Position numbers and translations under genes: made by a program
NCBI RefSeq assembly: GCF_000009365.1
Contig: NC_008260.1
Span: forward strand, 338,501 to 402,500
Length of the DNA: 64,000 bases
Origin: Alcanivorax borkumensis SK2
GTDB taxonomy: Bacteria; Pseudomonadota; Gammaproteobacteria; Pseudomonadales; Alcanivoracaceae
Direction: 5' to 3'
Shown: positions 25,903 to 41,380 of the stretch, piece after piece
How the letters are laid out: each line of letters begins with the position of its first letter
Position numbering within the stretch: position 1 is the stretch's first letter
Notes under the pieces: generated by a model
What the model saw: only the letters and a program-made list of their open reading frames with translations
Database searches by the model: none
What the model was told of the DNA's origin: nothing

Positions 25903-25982
25903 GGAGATTCGCCCGATAATGACGGCAGCTATAAATATGCATGGCTGGCCGTGACCTTAATTGAGCATATTGGAGAAGCATC

Positions 25983-26252
25983 ATGGCGTTAACCGTTGAA
26001 CAAAAAGCTGAAATTCTGAAAGAGCATGGCCGCAAAGAGAATGATACCGGGTCCCCGGAAGTTCAAGTCGCTTTGCTGAGCGCCAATATCAATGGTCTTC
26101 AGGATCACTTTAAAGGCCACAAGAAGGATCACCACAGCCGTCGTGGCCTGATCCGCATGGTAAACCAGCGTCGTAAGCTGCTGGACTACCTGGCCAAGAA
26201 AGACCGCACCCGTTACTTGCAGCTGATCGAAAAGCTGGGTCTGCGCCGCTAA
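25983..26252 (+). CDS. rpsO: 30S ribosomal protein S15
   Basis: Primary binder of the 16S rRNA central domain. 89 residues, the standard length, all alpha-helical, with [26 protein letters not shown] and the C-terminal [23 protein letters not shown]. The 80-bp spacer from truB probably holds its own promoter and leader; S15 autoregulates translation in E. coli. An intrinsic terminator follows 18 bp past the stop. Confidence 0.98.
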
Positions 26253-34453: not shown

Positions 34454-34943
34454 CGCGATCCAGTTCTGATAGCGGTGAAAGCGTTTGTTCGGTTACCTGA
34501 TCGAGGAAACTACTCAGAGCGGTGCCATCGGGCAAGATGCAGTGAGGTGCGATTTCCAGTAGCGGGTGAAGCACAAAAGCGCGTTGGGTCATTTGCGGAT
34601 GGGGGACCTGAAGGTCGACGGTGTCAATGCGTTGATCACCGAGTAATAGAATATCTAGGTCGAGGGTTCGCTCCCCCCAATGACGCAAGCGTTGACGGCC
34701 GGCGGCCAGTTCTAAGGCCTGCAGGCTATTGAGCAAGGCATGTGGCGTTAATGAGCTTTGCACTTCGGCGACAGCGTTGACGTAATCGGGTTGGTCCTGC
34801 GGGCCAATGGGGGCGCTAGTATACAGGCGGGAATGGTGTTGCAAGGTAAGGCCAGGCAGGTGTGCCATGGCCAGCAAGGCGCTGGTCAGCCGTTGTGCCG
34901 GCTGATCCAGGTTGCTTCCAAGCCCAATAAACGCTTGCATCAA
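34437..34943 (-). CDS. folK: 2-amino-4-hydroxy-6-hydroxymethyldihydropteridine pyrophosphokinase FolK
   Basis: Transfers pyrophosphate to the pterin just before FolP in folate synthesis. The 168-residue protein has FIGLGSNLDQPAQRL at the N-terminus, YTSAPIGPQDQPDYVNAVAEV, and the RHWGERTLDLDILLLGD signature followed by VPHPQMTQRAFVLHPLLEIAP. Overlaps pcnB by four bases and the kinase gene by 17, suggesting translational coupling. Confidence 0.96.
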   Translation of the reverse strand: MMQAFIGLGSNLDQPAQRLTSALLAMAHLPGLTLQHHSRLYTSAPIGPQDQPDYVNAVAEVQSSLTPHALLNSLQALELAAGRQRLRHWGERTLDLDILLLGDQRIDTVDLQVPHPQMTQRAFVLHPLLEIAPHCILPDGTALSSFLDQVTEQTLSPLSELDRDALID

Positions 34944-36319
34944 TTATCTGCAGCAGGCTTTGGCCGGCGCCGGCGGCGACGACGTTTGTTGTTGCCGCCT
35001 CCGCGGTTGCCTAGTTCGCTGATCATTTCCCGGCGACCGCTCTCATCTTCTTCCTGGTAGCGGGTCCACCAGTCGCCTAATCCTGGTTCAATTTCACCGC
35101 ATTGCTCGCGCAATAATAGGAAATCGTAGGCGGCCCGGAAACGAGGGTGCTCCATCATCGCATCAGCACGCCGGCCGGCACGTTTGTCCAGCCGCAGCTG
35201 TAGCTCCCACATTTCTCGCATCACGGTGGAGAAACGACGGGGGATAGCGGTGTGCTTGATTTGCAGGTTGAGGGCCCTGGTGGCGGACTTGTGTAGTGCC
35301 TGTGCCGGGGGTAGGCCACTAGACAAGTAACCGGTAAGACGCTGCTGGATCACCGGCCACAATAATACTGCATAGATAAAAGCGGGAGTAACGGGCTTAT
35401 CCATCAGCAGACGGCGGTCGGTGTTGTCCATAGCGGCCAGTAGCATGGCCTCCCACGTCTTGCCTTGGTCTCCTTCCAGTGCTTGCTGGGTTTCCGGAAA
35501 TAGGAAGCGGAACAGGCCCAGTTCTTGTAGCTGTTCATACGATGCTCGGGCGTGGCCGCTGAGGAAGAGTTTGAGTACCTCGTCAAATAGACGTGCGGAA
35601 GGTACCTGCAGCAATAATTCAGCCATATCTGGGATGCGACTGGCGGTACTTTTTTCTATTTCGAAGCCCAGTTTGGCGGCGAAACGGGCCGCGCGCAGCA
35701 TACGTACAGGGTCTTCGCGAAAGCGTTGCTCCGGGTCACCAATCAGGCGGATTGTTTCCTGGTCAATATCTTCCATGCTGCCGACAAAATCATGCAGGGA
35801 AAAATCAGCAATATTGTAGTACAGGGCGTTGATGGTGAAATCGCGACGCAGGGCGTCTTCTTCTATGCTGCCCCAGGTGTTATCGCGCAGTACCATGCCG
35901 GTTTCTTCATGAGCATGGTGCTTATTTCGGTCCTGGTTGTCGTCACTGGCCTTGGCTCGAAATGTGGAGACTTCAATGACTTCGCGACCAAAGCGAACAT
36001 GAACGATTTGAAAGCGTCGACCAATAATGCGGCTGCGCTTGAAAAGGCGCTGTACCTGTTCCGGGGTGGCATTGGTGGAAACGTCAAAATCCTTGGGTTC
36101 GCGACCGCAGAGGATGTCGCGCAGGCAGCCCCCGACCAGATAAGCCTCAAATCCTCCCTTGTGTAACCCGTAGAGCACATTAAGGGCGGCGCGGGAAACT
36201 TGCTGGCGGGAAATGGGATGTTGATCGCGAGGAATGACGCGGGGTTCCAGCGGGCCGGCAGAATCTGCGGAACTTGGAGTAAACCAGCGTGTCATATGTT
36301 TGAGAAGCTTGCAGGGCAT
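34940..36319 (-). CDS. pcnB: Poly(A) polymerase I PcnB
   Basis: Adds poly(A) tails that promote RNA decay. The 459-residue protein has the class II nucleotidyltransferase core: GGFEAYLVGGCLRDILCGREPKDFDVSTNATPEQV, with the two catalytic Asp in DFD, then RRRDFTINALYYN and the head/neck region. The C-terminus is strongly basic (Arg/Lys-rich last 30 residues) as in E. coli PcnB. Start MPCKLLKHM at 36319; ATG eight codons later is an alternative. It is separated from the cbrB gene by the small RNA locus, which is the same order as in Pseudomonas (cbrB-crcZ-pcnB). Confidence 0.95.
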   Translation of the reverse strand: MPCKLLKHMTRWFTPSSADSAGPLEPRVIPRDQHPISRQQVSRAALNVLYGLHKGGFEAYLVGGCLRDILCGREPKDFDVSTNATPEQVQRLFKRSRIIGRRFQIVHVRFGREVIEVSTFRAKASDDNQDRNKHHAHEETGMVLRDNTWGSIEEDALRRDFTINALYYNIADFSLHDFVGSMEDIDQETIRLIGDPEQRFREDPVRMLRAARFAAKLGFEIEKSTASRIPDMAELLLQVPSARLFDEVLKLFLSGHARASYEQLQELGLFRFLFPETQQALEGDQGKTWEAMLLAAMDNTDRRLLMDKPVTPAFIYAVLLWPVIQQRLTGYLSSGLPPAQALHKSATRALNLQIKHTAIPRRFSTVMREMWELQLRLDKRAGRRADAMMEHPRFRAAYDFLLLREQCGEIEPGLGDWWTRYQEEDESGRREMISELGNRGGGNNKRRRRRRRPKPAADN

Positions 36320-36440: not shown

Positions 36441-36471
36441 AAAAAGGAGCCACAACCGAAGTTGTGACTCC
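36441..36471 (-). terminator. UUCG-tetraloop terminator of the CrcZ-like RNA
   Basis: On the minus strand GGAGTCACAAC, loop TTCG, GTTGTGGCTCC (fully paired with one G-U), then TTTTT. It lies 435 bp beyond the cbrB stop with no ORF between, so it must end an RNA made from this interval or a long cbrB tail. Confidence 0.93.
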
Positions 36472-36632
36472 CATATTTTGCGCTGATTCTGTTTATTATT
36501 ATTGTTTGTGTTGTTTTCTGCCTTTTGCTGCAATCATCAGTTGCAGCTGCGCTGCATCGGCTCGTGAAATTATTGTTCTTCTTTCTTGTTGTTATTGTTT
36601 AAGCCTTAACGCCCTTGTTGTTGTTGTTTGCT
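36441..36632 (-). ncRNA. CrcZ-like small RNA with CA motifs (Hfq/Crc decoy)
   Basis: The minus strand carries three clusters of A-A-Y-A-A-Y repeats: 36629-36615 (four AAC units), 36600-36570 (AACAATAACAACAA then AAGAACAATAAT) and 36517-36491 (AACAACACAAACAATAAT onward). A UUCG terminator closes them at 36471-36441. In Pseudomonas the RNA CrcZ sits in this very place, after cbrB, and titrates Hfq/Crc through repeated AAYAAYAA motifs to relieve carbon catabolite repression. The predicted length (about 190 nt) is roughly half that of P. aeruginosa CrcZ. The 5' end is not established; I placed it just upstream of the first CA cluster. No ORF with a ribosome site fits the interval. Confidence 0.8.
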
Positions 36633-36744
36633 GGCGTGGAATTCATAGTGCCCGTCCCCCCCTGGTAATGCAACTGATCGAAAAAATGATTAAAATCATG
36701 GCCTTACATTTTTACTGGGAACCAATCTTAAATGCGGTCAGGGT

Positions 36745-36784
36745 CAGGTAACGTTTGTGTTACCTGCTTGTGTAGGGCGGTAAC
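36745..36784. promoter_or_regulatory. Palindromic upstream activating sites, probable CbrB enhancer
   Basis: CAGGTAAC (36745-36752), six bases, GTTACCTG (36759-36766) is a perfect 8-bp inverted repeat. The second half-site also forms GTTACC-N14-GGTAAC with 36779-36784. The cluster lies roughly 110-150 bp upstream of the predicted RNA start, a typical enhancer distance. CbrB is known to bind a palindrome upstream of crcZ in Pseudomonas, so these are the natural binding candidates. Confidence 0.6.
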
Positions 36785-36906
36785 ACTTGAGGTGCTTTGG
36801 GGGCGTGTTTCTGATCCTATTTCTTTTTTCGTGTCTTAAATTAAGGTTTTTCTGGATTAACCATTAATAATTGGCGAGTTGGGCTTTGTGGTCAGCTCGG
36901 GTTGGT

Positions 36907-38235
36907 TTAGCGTCGAATACTGGACTTCTTGCGCGGTATTCCCAGCCGTTGGCGTCGTTCCCATAGGCTTTTCCGGCTTATGCCCAATTTCTGAGCTAAC
37001 TCGGTTTCGGTCATGCTGTCCTGATTTTCCATCACGAAACGGGTGAAATAGTCCTCCAGAGACAGGTCTTCGCTGGGGTCTAGACTTGCTCGGCTGACTC
37101 GTTGGGGGGGGCGGCTAGGGTTTAGACCCAATTGAGCAGGACCGATACCGTCTTCTTCGGTGAGAATAATGGCTCTCTCGATAACATTTTCCAGTTCACG
37201 TACATTGCCGGGCCAGCTGTAGCTGTGCATGGCTCCCAAGGCTTGTGGCGTAAAATGTAGGTTTGGGCGGTTGAGTTTCTCACTGCCCCTTGCCAGCAGT
37301 GCGTTAGCTAGAGGCTCTAGGTCTTCGTGTCGGTCTCTGAGCGGAGGAAGGGTCAGTTCCATGACGTTGAGTCGGTAATAAAGGTCTTGACGGAAGCTGC
37401 CGTCAGTAATTCGGTTGGGTAAATCCAGTTGGTTACTGGCAAGAATGCGCACGTCGACACGGCGGGGGGACAGAGACCCTTGCCGGTGAATTTCATGATG
37501 GGTTAACAAGGTCAACAGGCGGCTTTGCACATCGCTGGCGAGCTCTCCTACTTCATCAAGAAACAAGGTTCCCCCATCCGCCTCTTCGATTCGCCCGGGC
37601 TGTTCATCATCGCCGAAGAGTTCGGTGAGTTGCAGGTTCTTGGGCAGTGCTGCGCACTGTATTGATACGAGAGGCCCGTTGATTCGTTTGCTGTGTTCGT
37701 GCAAAGCGCGGGCGGTGAGCTCTTTGCCTGTGCCTGCCTCGCCCATAATCAGAACCGGTGTGTTGGTGGGCGCCACACGGCTGATGCGGTGCTTGAGTTC
37801 CTGCATAGCGGGGCTGTCTCCGACCATATTGCGGACAGGAAAACTGCGCTCCAAATCGCGCCGTAAGGCACGGTTGCCCCGGTTTAGCCGACCCTCTTTC
37901 AGCACCCGGTCCACGGCGAGTAGCATTTCATCGTGGTCAAAGGGCTTGGGAATGTAATCCACTGCGCCCAGTCGCATGGCGTCCACCGCAGAGCGTAGGC
38001 TGGCATAGCTAGTCATGATCAGCACTGGCGTATTGCCAGCCGCCTCGATCAGATTGGTGCCGGGTTCACCGGGTAGGCGCAGGTCGCTGATGATCAGGTC
38101 GAACTGATTGAGGTTGTTCTCGAGGGCTTGCTCAACGGATTCCGCTTCTTCTACCGAGTGTTCATGGCGTACCAGCAGCTTGCGCAGAGCGCCGCGAATA
38201 ACGGGCTCATCTTCAACAATCAGAATGTGACTCAT
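36907..38235 (-). CDS. cbrB: CbrB-type NtrC-family response regulator lacking the GAFTGA loop
   Basis: Response regulator of the CbrA/CbrB carbon-nitrogen balance system. 442 residues: receiver with Asp51 in SDLRLPG and Lys97 in PKPFDHDE; AAA+ domain with Walker A GEAGTGKE (165-172), Walker B GGTLFLDE (221-228), FRQDLYYRL with the Arg finger region (281-289) and WPGNVREL (341-348); Fis-type HTH TETELAQKLGISRKSLWERR (409-428). Between ELFG (205-208) and ADGG (219-222) there are 10 residues instead of about 19, and GAFTGA, the sigma-54 contact, is absent. ATPase motifs are otherwise intact. The end of the protein is closely CbrB-like (EDLSLEDYF and the HTH). Confidence 0.92.
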   Translation of the reverse strand: MSHILIVEDEPVIRGALRKLLVRHEHSVEEAESVEQALENNLNQFDLIISDLRLPGEPGTNLIEAAGNTPVLIMTSYASLRSAVDAMRLGAVDYIPKPFDHDEMLLAVDRVLKEGRLNRGNRALRRDLERSFPVRNMVGDSPAMQELKHRISRVAPTNTPVLIMGEAGTGKELTARALHEHSKRINGPLVSIQCAALPKNLQLTELFGDDEQPGRIEEADGGTLFLDEVGELASDVQSRLLTLLTHHEIHRQGSLSPRRVDVRILASNQLDLPNRITDGSFRQDLYYRLNVMELTLPPLRDRHEDLEPLANALLARGSEKLNRPNLHFTPQALGAMHSYSWPGNVRELENVIERAIILTEEDGIGPAQLGLNPSRPPQRVSRASLDPSEDLSLEDYFTRFVMENQDSMTETELAQKLGISRKSLWERRQRLGIPRKKSSIRR

Positions 38236-38271: not shown

Positions 38272-41214
38272 TTACGCCCCGTCGGTAGGAGTGTGCATGG
38301 GTAGTTGAATAATAAACCGTGTGCCGCCCTGTTCAGCAACAGGGCTTTCCACCTGAATCGAGCCCAAGTGCTCTTTGATAATACTGTAAACCAGTGCCAA
38401 CCCAAGGCCTGTTCCGCGACCAGGGGGCTTACTGGTAACAAAAGGCTCAAATAGAGCGTCGCGCAATTCTTCAGGAATGCCGTGGCCTTGATCTTCCACA
38501 ATCACATTCACTGCTTGATCGGTGGCGTTGCTGAGAATGACTACCGGTTGTTTATCAATACTGGCGTCGGCGGCGTTACCCAGCAGATTGATGAATACCT
38601 GTAGTAGGCGCTGAGGGTCGCCTTGAACCCAGTGTTCGGGTTTACTTCGGTTGTCGAAGGGTTGCTGGCGGTGGTCTGGATCCAGCAGTAACAGAGATAC
38701 GGCTTCATCCACGGTGTCGCGGATATTTACTGGCACATGCTGGCTGTGCCTGATGCCCCCTGAATGGCTAAAGGTGACCAGTGATTCCACGATACGGGTA
38801 ATGCGGCGGGTTTGTTCAAGGATTTGCTGGCTCGATTCCAGTTGTTCTTCGGCGTCGGTTTCACTGTCTAAATTCTGGGCGAGGCAGGCGATGGCGGTAA
38901 CCGGGTTGCCAATTTCGTGGGCGATACCGGCGGCTAGTCGGCCGATAGAGGCAAGCCGTTCATTATGAGTCAGATGGGCTTCCATTTGGCGCAGCTCGGT
39001 AATGTCCTCAATTACCACCACCTGGCCGCCGGCTTGTTCCGAGGTGCCGGTGCCAAGGACTTCGGATTTATGGAGGCTTAGCCAGCGGGTCTGTCGGTCC
39101 ACCTCCAAAGATTGCTGCGGTTGGTGCGGGTTGTCATCACGGCTGAACTGGGTCAGGAATTCGCCCCACGGTGAAGCTAGGTCCGCTAATCGGGAGCCGA
39201 TAGTGCCGGCGGCAGTAATCCCCGTTAATTCTTCCATAGCCCGGTTCCAGCCGATGATCTCCCGGTCCGCGCCCAGCGAGATAACCCCCATGGGCAGCTC
39301 GAGTAGTGTTTGGCGATGGAAGCGACGCAGGCTGTCTAACTCTGCCGCTAGCCCGGAGAGTCGATCACGGTATTGCTCCAAGCGTGACTCAATAAACTGG
39401 ATATCTTCGCTGGAGCGTTGCTGCTCTTCGGGCAGGTAAGGTAAATGGTCGTCCATCAACTGGTGCGATACTGATGGTCCTAGCAGGCCGGAAAGGTTGG
39501 TTTCTAGCTGATCGCGCAGCCGCCGTAAGGCGTAGGGGCGTGTTTCTGTGCGCGGCAGGCGCAGGTCGCGCAGCGCCATTTCTACTTCACGTGTGGCGGT
39601 GATCGGACCCAGCGGTTGGGTCAGCGCTTCAATGAAGTTGTCTACGCTTTTGGTTTTCAGTTCCCATCGGTAGGGGCGGCGTAAGCTACCCACAGCACAG
39701 GCTTGGGCGGCGTTTTGCTCTGCCTGCGACATCGGGGTAACAATGGAGATGATGGCGTACAGCAATGTGTTGGCGGTGACCGAAACAATGGCCACGTGGT
39801 GCCATTGGTTGGCGCCGGTTTGGAAGCGCATGCCGAGCAATTCCATGAGCCCTTGAAATTGCCATTGTGGGTAGGTGATGGGCAGCAGCAATAACAGTAG
39901 CCATAGCAGGAAGCCAAGAACGAGACCGGCAAATAAACCGTTGCGGTTGCCCGAAGGCCAGAACAGAGCACCGATCAGTCCGGGGACAAACTGCAGGGTG
40001 GCAACGAACGACAGCACGCCCAGCTCAACCAAGGTGTGCTCGGTGCCGGTGAAACGATAGAACAGATAGGCTAGGGCGAGAATGGCGGCGATCAGAATGC
40101 GCCGGGTCCACAACAAGTTTCGGTATAGGTTTTGACCCCGATGCAACGGGCTGACCGGCAGTACCAAGTGGTTCAGGCACATCCCAGACAAGGCTAGGGT
40201 GGCCACAATCAGCATGCCGCTGGCGCCGGCCAAGCCAGCAATATAACCGAGAATGGCTCCATGCCCGCCGGTCACCATGCCAATACCCAGCGCATAGTAA
40301 TCTGGGGAGGTGGGGGCATTGCTGGCGGCGGCGGCCCATAGAATTACAGGTACACATAGGGCCATGATTAGAAACATTAACGGCAGCGCCCAGCTTGCGG
40401 TGATCAGAGCCCGGGGATTCAAGTTTTCGGTGAACGCCATGTAAAACATGTGTGGCAGCACGACGGCGGAGACGAAAAACGCCATGATCATGGAATGCCA
40501 ACTACCATCCTGCAGGGGATAATAGAGCCGGGCCAGCATTTCAGGGTGCTCGTCCAGCCAGTTGCCGAGGCTTTCCGGCCCGTCAAACACGCCGTATAAC
40601 CCCAGTAATGCAACTGCGCCAAAGGCTAACAATTTAATCAGCGATTCCATGGCGATGGCGACGACTAGCCCTTCGTGTTTTTCTCTGGCAGTAGCGTGGC
40701 GGGCGCCGAATAGAATGGCAAAGATCACCATCATAAAGCAGAAGCCGGCGGCTAGATCACGGGGATCAGACGTGTCGCTGAGGATCTGAATAGACTCCGC
40801 CACAGCTTTGAGTTGTAGAGCCAGCAGAGGTAAAACGCCGATCAACATGATAACGGTAGTTGTGGCACCGGCTAGGCGACTGCGATAGCGGAAGGAAAAC
40901 AAGTCTGCCAGCGAGCTTAGCTGGTAAGTGGCCGTGAGGCGTAGTATCGGTGCCAGCAATATGGGGGCGAGCAGAAAGATCCCGGAGATGCCGAGAAAGT
41001 AGGAGAGAAAGTTATAGCCGTATTGGTAAGCATAGCCCACCGATCCATATACCGCCCAAGCGCTGGCGTATACGCCCAGAGAAAAAACGTACACGGCGGG
41101 ATGACGGACCAACCTTGCTGGTAACCAGCCGCGCTCGGTGATCCAGGCCACCATAAAAAGGAAAAAAAGGTAGCCACAGGCGATCAGGATGAGGTCGCTA
41201 ACGCTATAGACCAT
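38272..41214 (-). CDS. cbrA: CbrA sensor histidine kinase with SLC5 transporter-like domain
   Basis: Membrane sensor kinase partner of CbrB. About 980 residues: an N-terminal SLC5/sodium-solute-symporter-like region with roughly 13 membrane segments (to about residue 500), a linker, a PAS domain (about 650-760), HisKA with GIAHEIGNPVTAI (phospho-His near 766), and HATPase with INLLGNAADAS, EDQGHGIPEE and GRGTGLGLALVYSI. ATG 41214 (MVYSVSDLI) follows AAGGA by five bases and overlaps the end of cbrX; upstream starts at 41220 and 41235 are possible. CbrA in Pseudomonas has the same architecture and transports histidine. cbrB follows 36 bp downstream. Confidence 0.93.
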   Translation of the reverse strand: MVYSVSDLILIACGYLFFLFMVAWITERGWLPARLVRHPAVYVFSLGVYASAWAVYGSVGYAYQYGYNFLSYFLGISGIFLLAPILLAPILRLTATYQLSSLADLFSFRYRSRLAGATTTVIMLIGVLPLLALQLKAVAESIQILSDTSDPRDLAAGFCFMMVIFAILFGARHATAREKHEGLVVAIAMESLIKLLAFGAVALLGLYGVFDGPESLGNWLDEHPEMLARLYYPLQDGSWHSMIMAFFVSAVVLPHMFYMAFTENLNPRALITASWALPLMFLIMALCVPVILWAAAASNAPTSPDYYALGIGMVTGGHGAILGYIAGLAGASGMLIVATLALSGMCLNHLVLPVSPLHRGQNLYRNLLWTRRILIAAILALAYLFYRFTGTEHTLVELGVLSFVATLQFVPGLIGALFWPSGNRNGLFAGLVLGFLLWLLLLLLPITYPQWQFQGLMELLGMRFQTGANQWHHVAIVSVTANTLLYAIISIVTPMSQAEQNAAQACAVGSLRRPYRWELKTKSVDNFIEALTQPLGPITATREVEMALRDLRLPRTETRPYALRRLRDQLETNLSGLLGPSVSHQLMDDHLPYLPEEQQRSSEDIQFIESRLEQYRDRLSGLAAELDSLRRFHRQTLLELPMGVISLGADREIIGWNRAMEELTGITAAGTIGSRLADLASPWGEFLTQFSRDDNPHQPQQSLEVDRQTRWLSLHKSEVLGTGTSEQAGGQVVVIEDITELRQMEAHLTHNERLASIGRLAAGIAHEIGNPVTAIACLAQNLDSETDAEEQLESSQQILEQTRRITRIVESLVTFSHSGGIRHSQHVPVNIRDTVDEAVSLLLLDPDHRQQPFDNRSKPEHWVQGDPQRLLQVFINLLGNAADASIDKQPVVILSNATDQAVNVIVEDQGHGIPEELRDALFEPFVTSKPPGRGTGLGLALVYSIIKEHLGSIQVESPVAEQGGTRFIIQLPMHTPTDGA

Positions 41215-41380
41215 CGGCATCCTTAATCTTGGCAATCCAGTAACTCAAGGCAATAAGGCCTAGCCAGATTAGGTAGGGGCGATACCAAGCACGCCCACCT
41301 TCGCTCCACCATTCAATGATGGCTGGAGATAGCAGGTAGGTGCCGAGAATAAAAATAATAAGCAGGCGATCAGTATACAT
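41204..41380 (-). CDS. cbrX: CbrX-like small hydrophobic protein upstream of cbrA
   Basis: A 58-residue ORF, MYTDRLLIIFILGTYLLSPA at the N-terminus, with a hydrophobic first helix, a polar W-W-S-E-G-G-R-A-W-Y-R-P loop and a second hydrophobic helix ending I-A-K-I-K-D-A-D. It overlaps the cbrA start by 11 bases, so translation of the two is probably coupled. Pseudomonas has a small ORF (cbrX) with the same size, topology and overlap upstream of cbrA. The name is by position and character only. Confidence 0.65.
   Translation of the reverse strand: MYTDRLLIIFILGTYLLSPAIIEWWSEGGRAWYRPYLIWLGLIALSYWIAKIKDADGL

Follow-up and report, generated by a model that had tools for sequence, protein, structure and literature searches.

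The window analysed here is a stretch of 64,000 nucleotides, positions 338501-402500, of the single-contig genome of Alcanivorax borkumensis SK2 (3,120,143 bases). On its minus strand, cbrA is followed by cbrB, a spacer of 587 bases and pcnB:

38272..41235, minus strand: cbrA, transporter-type sensor kinase (match to PDB 10ED plus kinase domains)
36907..38235, minus strand: cbrB, response regulator of the sigma54-activator type with the GAFTGA loop deleted (residues 205-228, ELFGDDEQPGRIEEADGGTLFLDE, at 37623-37552)
34940..36319, minus strand: pcnB, poly(A) polymerase (TIGR01942, 524 bits)

Residues 6-601 of CbrA align with PDB 10ED, the SLC5-STAC structure of Pseudomonas CbrXA, with a score of 687 bits, and kinase domains were also found. 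The protein is recognisable as CbrA by this fusion of an SLC5-STAC transporter part to a kinase; the Pfam SSF profile gave no match to its N-terminal 545 amino acids (E 5). The spacer between cbrB and pcnB is the location of the small RNA CrcZ (RF01675) in Pseudomonas, and it contains an RNA element with the following parts:

36748..36785, minus strand: CbrB-type site, consisting of TGTTAC (36785-36780), GTAACA (36763-36758) and an extra GTTAC (36752-36748), from the subsite consensus
36645..36673, minus strand: promoter-like pair, TTGCAT (36673-36668), 17 nt and CACTAT (36650-36645), a family-wide pattern
36441..36638, minus strand: putative CrcZ-like small RNA, predicted extent about 198 nt, the 5' end taken from the promoter-like pair and the 3' end from the terminator
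36609..36637, minus strand: stem 1, ACGCC/GGCGT, closing CA block 1 (predicted fold, almost invariant)
36614..36629, minus strand: CA block 1 (AAACAACAACAACAAG), in the loop of stem 1 (sequence and predicted fold)
36559..36605, minus strand: stem 2, GGCTT/GAGCC, closing CA block 2 (predicted fold, almost invariant)
36570..36600, minus strand: CA block 2, in the loop of stem 2 (sequence and predicted fold)
36489..36517, minus strand: CA block 3, for the most part single-stranded (sequence and predicted fold)
36441..36472, minus strand: intrinsic terminator with a UUCG loop, GGGAGTCACAAC-TTCG-GTTGTGGCTCC-TTTTT (sequence and compensatory changes)

The clusters of A-A-Y repeats on the minus strand, the UUCG terminator and the placement between cbrB and pcnB had been described in the initial annotation and were confirmed by direct reading and by placement with a script. 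AAYAAYAA occurs 10 times on the minus strand within the 200 nt of the element, against a mean of 0.21 and a maximum of 5 in 2000 dinucleotide shuffles. The likeness to CrcZ in position and motif proposed earlier holds. Elsewhere in the 64-kb window the same motif is found 6 times on the minus and 3 times on the plus strand. The CA motif AANAANAA occurs 13 times on the sense strand of these 200 nt (shuffles: mean 1.3, maximum 8), forming an array of the kind that characterises CrcZ. The longer AAYAAYAAYAA is present 31 times in the 3,120,143 bases of the genome, 6 times in the element and 25 times as isolated sites, so that it is clustered nowhere else in the genome.

The element is non-coding and the spacer has no credible open reading frame, as the initial annotation had stated. 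The one frame of at least 80 amino acids that runs over the element (36464-36751, plus strand, 95 amino acids) matches nothing in Pfam or NCBIfam at E 0.001. That a small Asn/Lys-rich protein is made from the ATG at 36646 is hardly credible: an ATG stands at the equivalent place in 37 of 42 loci, but its frame varies from 7 to 112 codons, with an end that shifts even within the genus, and the ATG overlaps the promoter-like element. In the window this minus-strand ATG opens a frame of 15 amino acids that is not gene-like in relatives, and the small-protein reading was rejected. The earlier expectation that a covariance model built on the longer RNA would miss this one is borne out, since an Rfam scan gave no CrcZ match in the window or in the whole genome. 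The RF01675 gathering score was also not reached in seven genomes of the same family within the order sample, for which stricter filters applied. The matches that the scan did give in the window are two tRNAs and a ribosomal S15 leader (25921-26039, plus strand, 45.6 bits).

The RNA of the window folds with a z-score of -3.6 relative to shuffles. Among 19 aligned sequences, drawn from the 38 RNAs that could be defined in the Alcanivoracaceae, six pairs of the terminator stem have changed on both sides, and all pairs of this kind lie in the terminator. Stems 1 and 2, around CA blocks 1 and 2, scarcely vary in these 19 sequences, so covariation support is confined to the terminator. The set of 38 leaves aside L033, L034, L035 and L048, in which the stem is not followed by five consecutive T, and three loci that do not match the pattern of promoter-like pair plus CA motif.

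The family sample comprises 46 genomes, from 45 of which the pcnB locus was obtained. Two of these loci (L010 and L025) stop at a contig edge without cbrB; the remaining 43 genomes have cbrB immediately upstream. Two of the 43 entered the set twice (L048 and L049 being the second copies), so that 45 family loci from 43 genomes were counted. Each of the 45 carries 7-14 copies of AANAANAA on the sense strand and 0-2 on the antisense strand. Mean pairwise identity among the loci of the genus, calculated from 15 of 17 after omission of one near-duplicate and one contig-edge locus, is 0.915 for the RNA, 0.795 for the CbrB site and 0.787 for the promoter-like segment, compared with 0.296 upstream of the CbrB site, 0.502 between this site and the promoter and 0.57 between the terminator and pcnB. 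The element is conserved in the family and its flanks are not. The alignment of the spacer in relatives that had been suggested as a check thus gave the expected outcome, the A-A-Y blocks being kept (RNA 0.915) and the flanks not (0.296 upstream). The same data bear on the idea that the element is a 5' leader or attenuator of pcnB rather than a free RNA. It does lie directly upstream of pcnB and in the same direction, but it stops about 120 nt short of pcnB at a strong terminator, whose stem shows compensatory changes, the stretch from terminator to gene is less conserved (0.57), and the arrays of other families have a sigma54 site ahead of them, all of which make a leader very unlikely.

The arrangement is not confined to this family. 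An even sample of the order contained 194 genomes, with pcnB in 193. Outside the Alcanivoracaceae the upstream region was read for 97 of 186 loci, taken among the better-scoring matches listed, mostly one or two per genus, so that families with a divergent pcnB fall outside this set. In 84 of the 97, cbrB is upstream of pcnB, and 79 of the 84 have a spacer of 150-1400 bases. At least four sense-strand copies of AANAANAA were found in 77 of these 79 spacers, from 30 families, and sense copies exceed antisense copies in 78. The 13 loci in which cbrB was not detected divide into six with 11-17 copies of AANAANAA in the last 700 bases and seven with 0 or 1. The Rfam CrcZ model gave matches at E 0.001 or better in 41 of the 194 genomes, 9 of them over its threshold, and many of the weaker matches sit just upstream of pcnB. 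From sequence comparison, the order of cbrB, CA array and pcnB looks like a trait of the order, and the idea of the RNA as an isolated case outside Pseudomonas had to be given up, since the arrangement occurs in 30 other sampled families.

These comparisons also bear on a different function for the RNA, in which the CA blocks would load Hfq and another part would pair with target mRNAs. A class of enterobacterial small RNAs binds the distal face of Hfq through A-A-N motifs, and stretches outside the CA blocks are conserved too, such as AGAATCAGCGCA, which precedes the terminator and is invariant in 19 of 19 aligned sequences. However, three CA blocks are more than should be required to load a single Hfq, and CA motifs are found at the same position in the 30 other families. 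The RNAs themselves were aligned within the family, which leaves room for a pairing region of wider spread. A base-pairing RNA is on balance unlikely, and a decoy that takes up Hfq is the preferred reading.

The regulator encoded upstream differs from its counterparts elsewhere in the order. The motif G[AS]F[TS]G is absent from all 44 readable CbrB sequences of the family: at the position of GAFTGA the genus of the window has a deletion (ELFGDDEQPGRIEEADGG), and sister genera read, for example, DALPGA or GAFEGA. The CbrB of the window consequently lacks the GAFTGA loop of sigma54-dependent activators. The sigma54 test asked for TGGCAY-N6-YGC followed 18-75 nt later by a CA motif. This combination is present at 63 of 64 loci with GAFTGA, at none of 44 family loci and at none of 5 other loci without GAFTGA; in one of these five (L140) a sigma54 site is present with no CA motif after it. 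The gene for sigma54, rpoN, was found in all 23 genomes tested, 15 of which are Alcanivoracaceae. A second set, the best 80 of 593 loci from named genera, contains 64 loci with a GAFTGA-bearing CbrB, and in all 64 a sigma54 site is followed by a CA motif. They comprise 33 Pseudomonas loci and 31 others, with examples in Halomonas, Chromohalobacter, Vreelandella, Oceanospirillum, Marinomonas, Marinobacter, Nitrincola, Gilvimarinus, Zhongshania and Spongiibacter. Four further loci of this set have cbrB but no GAFTGA reading, namely three Alcanivoracaceae, which have no sigma54 site, and a Halomonas MAG (L205), which has one and whose CbrB frame, with just 229 amino acids, is too short to be read. 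Among the 12 in which cbrB was not detected, 10 have no array, including Methylophaga, Kangiella, Acidithiobacillus and Thiogranum; for one of the 10, L257, just 106 bases are visible. An array is present in Salinicola L216 and the Halomonas MAG L217.

In place of the sigma54 site, the family has a common promoter-like pair. TTGCA[AT]-N17-CANNAT occurs somewhere in the spacer of 44 of the 45 family loci, representing eight genera (the remaining locus, L037, reads TTGCCA), and in 42 family loci a CA motif follows 35-75 nt downstream. The pair lies 20-95 nt before the array in 38 of 44 family loci, compared with 0 of 64 loci with GAFTGA and 0 of the 5 others without it. TTGCA[AT] and CANNAT are weak matches to the sigma70 consensus.

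The binding site of CbrB appears to have outlasted this change. Published CbrB subsites read TGTTAC and GTAACA with a spacing of 20-25 bp (PMC6296734), and an F1-R1 pair with a spacing of 18-27 and at most two mismatches was found in 45 of 45 family loci, 39 of them perfect (shuffles 8%), and in 58 of 64 GAFTGA-bearing loci (shuffles 9%). The five other GAFTGA-less loci yielded one pair, with two mismatches, which is no better than chance at a shuffle rate of 14%. Judged by its sequence, a CbrB binding site like that of CrcZ is thus present upstream of the RNA in the window. This finding speaks against a constitutive sigma70 promoter, at which CbrB would no longer be an activator and would bind as a repressor or not at all. 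Activation through sigma54 is not expected without GAFTGA, and the promoter-like pair might need no activator, but all 45 family loci retain the site, while four of the five other GAFTGA-less loci have none and the fifth is at chance level. Constitutive transcription is accordingly rather unlikely, and CbrB probably still controls what appears to be a sigma70-type promoter, by analogy with other NtrC-type regulators without GAFTGA.

The genome check for hfq and crc that had been suggested gave a divided result: hfq is present and no crc orthologue was found. Hfq is encoded at 1420-1773 of L001, minus strand. Its residues 1-72 align with PDB 1u1s, the best-matching solved Hfq, which we take to be that of P. 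aeruginosa, and position 25 is Phe compared with Tyr in 1u1s. Tyr25 is a distal-face residue mutated in an earlier study of Hfq (PMC4063720).

Across the 46 family genomes no Crc match exceeds 34.1 bits; weak matches that reach E 1e-5 were obtained in 25 of the 46. The same query scores 517-602 bits in seven genomes of its own family (f21). The query itself (L164) matches PDB 4jg3, the catabolite repression control protein, with 558 bits, and the neighbouring frame presumably corresponds to pyrE. The genome of the window encodes one xth-family protein, an ExoIII, and genomes of f21 and f2 encode two or three. Alcanivorax has also been stated to have no Crc homologue (PMC9788540). Taken together, the sequences suggest that the Alcanivoracaceae have lost Crc.

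Loss of the loop and loss of Crc occur together. Among 114 loci with a readable CbrB, 61 have GAFTGA and a Crc match, 4 have GAFTGA without a Crc match, 49 have neither, and none lacks GAFTGA while having a Crc match. The 49 GAFTGA-less loci, from 47 genomes and four families, are 44 of the Alcanivoracaceae (two of them duplicates) and five of families f18, f42 and f46. Counted by family, because loci are dependent through shared ancestry, GAFTGA was lost in four of 29, all of them Crc-less lineages. Crc presence in the order was defined as a match at E 1e-40 (151 of 194 genomes), a figure that related exonucleases may inflate; of the 43 genomes without such a match, some of which are incomplete, 23 were deduced by subtraction. 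The two CbrB sequences of f42 have 42-43% identity to that of the window and may not be strict orthologues. The five GAFTGA-less loci outside the Alcanivoracaceae have 0-6 copies of AANAANAA, with 8 in L140, and four of the five have lost the CbrB site. Among GAFTGA-less loci, array, CbrB site and new promoter-like pair occur together only in the Alcanivoracaceae, a pattern that speaks for a rebuilt and selected circuit rather than decay. Crc loss alone cannot explain the change, because four loci with GAFTGA are found in Crc-less genomes. L089, L096, L065 (f17) and L121 (f29) have no Crc match, yet retain GAFTGA, the sigma54 site and the array; they are possible intermediates, or Crc was missed in them, since some of the genomes are incomplete.

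What the genomes themselves show is a conserved element, a CbrB that has lost its loop and retained its binding site, a promoter-like pair, and the absence of a sigma54 site and of Crc. With no Crc orthologue found, no GAFTGA in CbrB and no sigma54 site, the RNA cannot be an Hfq/Crc decoy in the Pseudomonas sense. The best explanation, to which we give a probability of about 0.6, is a CrcZ-like Hfq decoy in a Crc-less lineage, with a sigma70-type promoter in place of the sigma54 promoter and CbrB probably still in control. The principal repressor in P. aeruginosa is Hfq, with Crc in an auxiliary role; CrcZ, an RNA of 407 nt with six A-rich stretches, binds and titrates Hfq, potentially via its distal face (PMC4063720). 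In Alcanivorax the A-A-Y blocks would likewise bind the distal face and titrate Hfq away from mRNAs, and the three CA blocks, of which blocks 1 and 2 sit in loops, could accommodate up to about three Hfq hexamers. Transcription of the RNA would have shifted from a sigma54 to a sigma70-type promoter, and CbrB without its sigma54-contacting loop would still recognise its site, which lies at the usual distance, and from there act on the new promoter. It could do so because NtrC proteins without GAFTGA, those of Rhodobacter and Caulobacter, have been reported to act at sigma70 promoters (PMC10274813). We infer from this arrangement that the RNA is transcribed, depends on CbrB, binds Hfq and affects carbon use. 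A further step is tentative and falls just short of an even chance: once Crc is lost, the CbrB-CrcZ circuit would no longer be tied to sigma54, and the Alcanivoracaceae would have rebuilt it as a Crc-independent, CbrB-controlled Hfq decoy on a sigma70-type promoter.

The proposed RNA resembles CrcZ of Pseudomonas in its position between cbrB and pcnB, its A-rich CA blocks on the sense strand, its terminator, the presence of hfq in the genome and a CbrB-type site at a similar distance (median F1-to-array distance 158 nt in the family and 153 nt at GAFTGA-bearing loci). It differs in its predicted length of 198 nt with three blocks, compared with 407 nt and six A-rich stretches (PMC4063720), in agreement with the earlier estimate of about 190 nt, and in having no Rfam match, no sigma54 site, no GAFTGA in CbrB and no Crc found. 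The idea of a decoy with CA blocks is common to CrcY and CrcX of Pseudomonas and CrcY of Azotobacter (PMC6292655). CrcY and CrcX are further RNAs besides CrcZ, whereas no second cluster of AAYAAYAAYAA, and hence no second decoy copy visible to a pattern that copies with looser motifs would escape, was found in the whole Alcanivorax genome. The NtrC proteins of Rhodobacter capsulatus and Caulobacter share the loop-1 deletion and the association with sigma70 promoters (PMC10274813); they serve nitrogen regulation, whereas the output of the Alcanivorax CbrB would be a decoy RNA.

The accessible text of the open-licence literature on CrcZ, CbrA and CbrB in Alcanivorax, Marinobacter, Halomonas and the Oceanospirillales (including PMC9049629) describes no such RNA, in keeping with the earlier suggestion that it might be undescribed here. 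Transcripts of cbrAB have been reported from a marine community, apparently without their owners being named (PMC5073097). A dRNA-seq study of A. dieselolei lists 34 intergenic small RNAs (PMC9788540, section 2.8), and this RNA may already be among them; the main text names neither cbrB nor pcnB. A review calls CbrAB unique to Pseudomonadaceae (PMC8871633), a statement that would need revising given the spread of the CbrAB-CrcZ arrangement over the order. If the decoy reading is true, a family with a decoy RNA but without Crc offers a natural test of Hfq and decoy alone. It would also add to the natural examples of NtrC-type regulators that have departed from sigma54, one in which promoter, loop and partner protein can be read across many genomes, and may show the evolutionary rewiring of a control circuit. 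Alcanivorax is an important marine oil degrader, and the control of its carbon-source use is of practical interest.

Six of the 25 other AAYAAYAAYAA sites of the genome (L172, L184, L186, L189, L192 and L196) have a start codon 10-38 nt after their first base, a proportion for which there is no proper background. The proteins that follow are of the SBP_bac_5, SSF symporter, AMP-binding, HAMP/GAF and DUF4282 types, with one below-cutoff match to DUF4156. At the SBP gene, AANAANAA counts from 5 of the 17 genus loci are 2 in the genome of the window and in two near genomes, and 1 and 0 in two distant congeners, in which no A-A-Y repeat is left at this gene. As candidate targets these genes are not convincing and carry no weight for the decoy reading.

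Two further variants of the spacer were seen in the order. At L119 (f43) and L122 (f42), cbrB and pcnB are neighbours separated by 94 and 166 bases, respectively, with no CA motif in between, and the RNA seems to have been lost. In families f14, f30, f39, f47, f38 and f6, single cbrB-pcnB spacers have two strong sigma54 sites each (for example L133, L115, L098, L141, L071, L109, L060 and L061), possibly reflecting tandem CrcZ-type RNAs.
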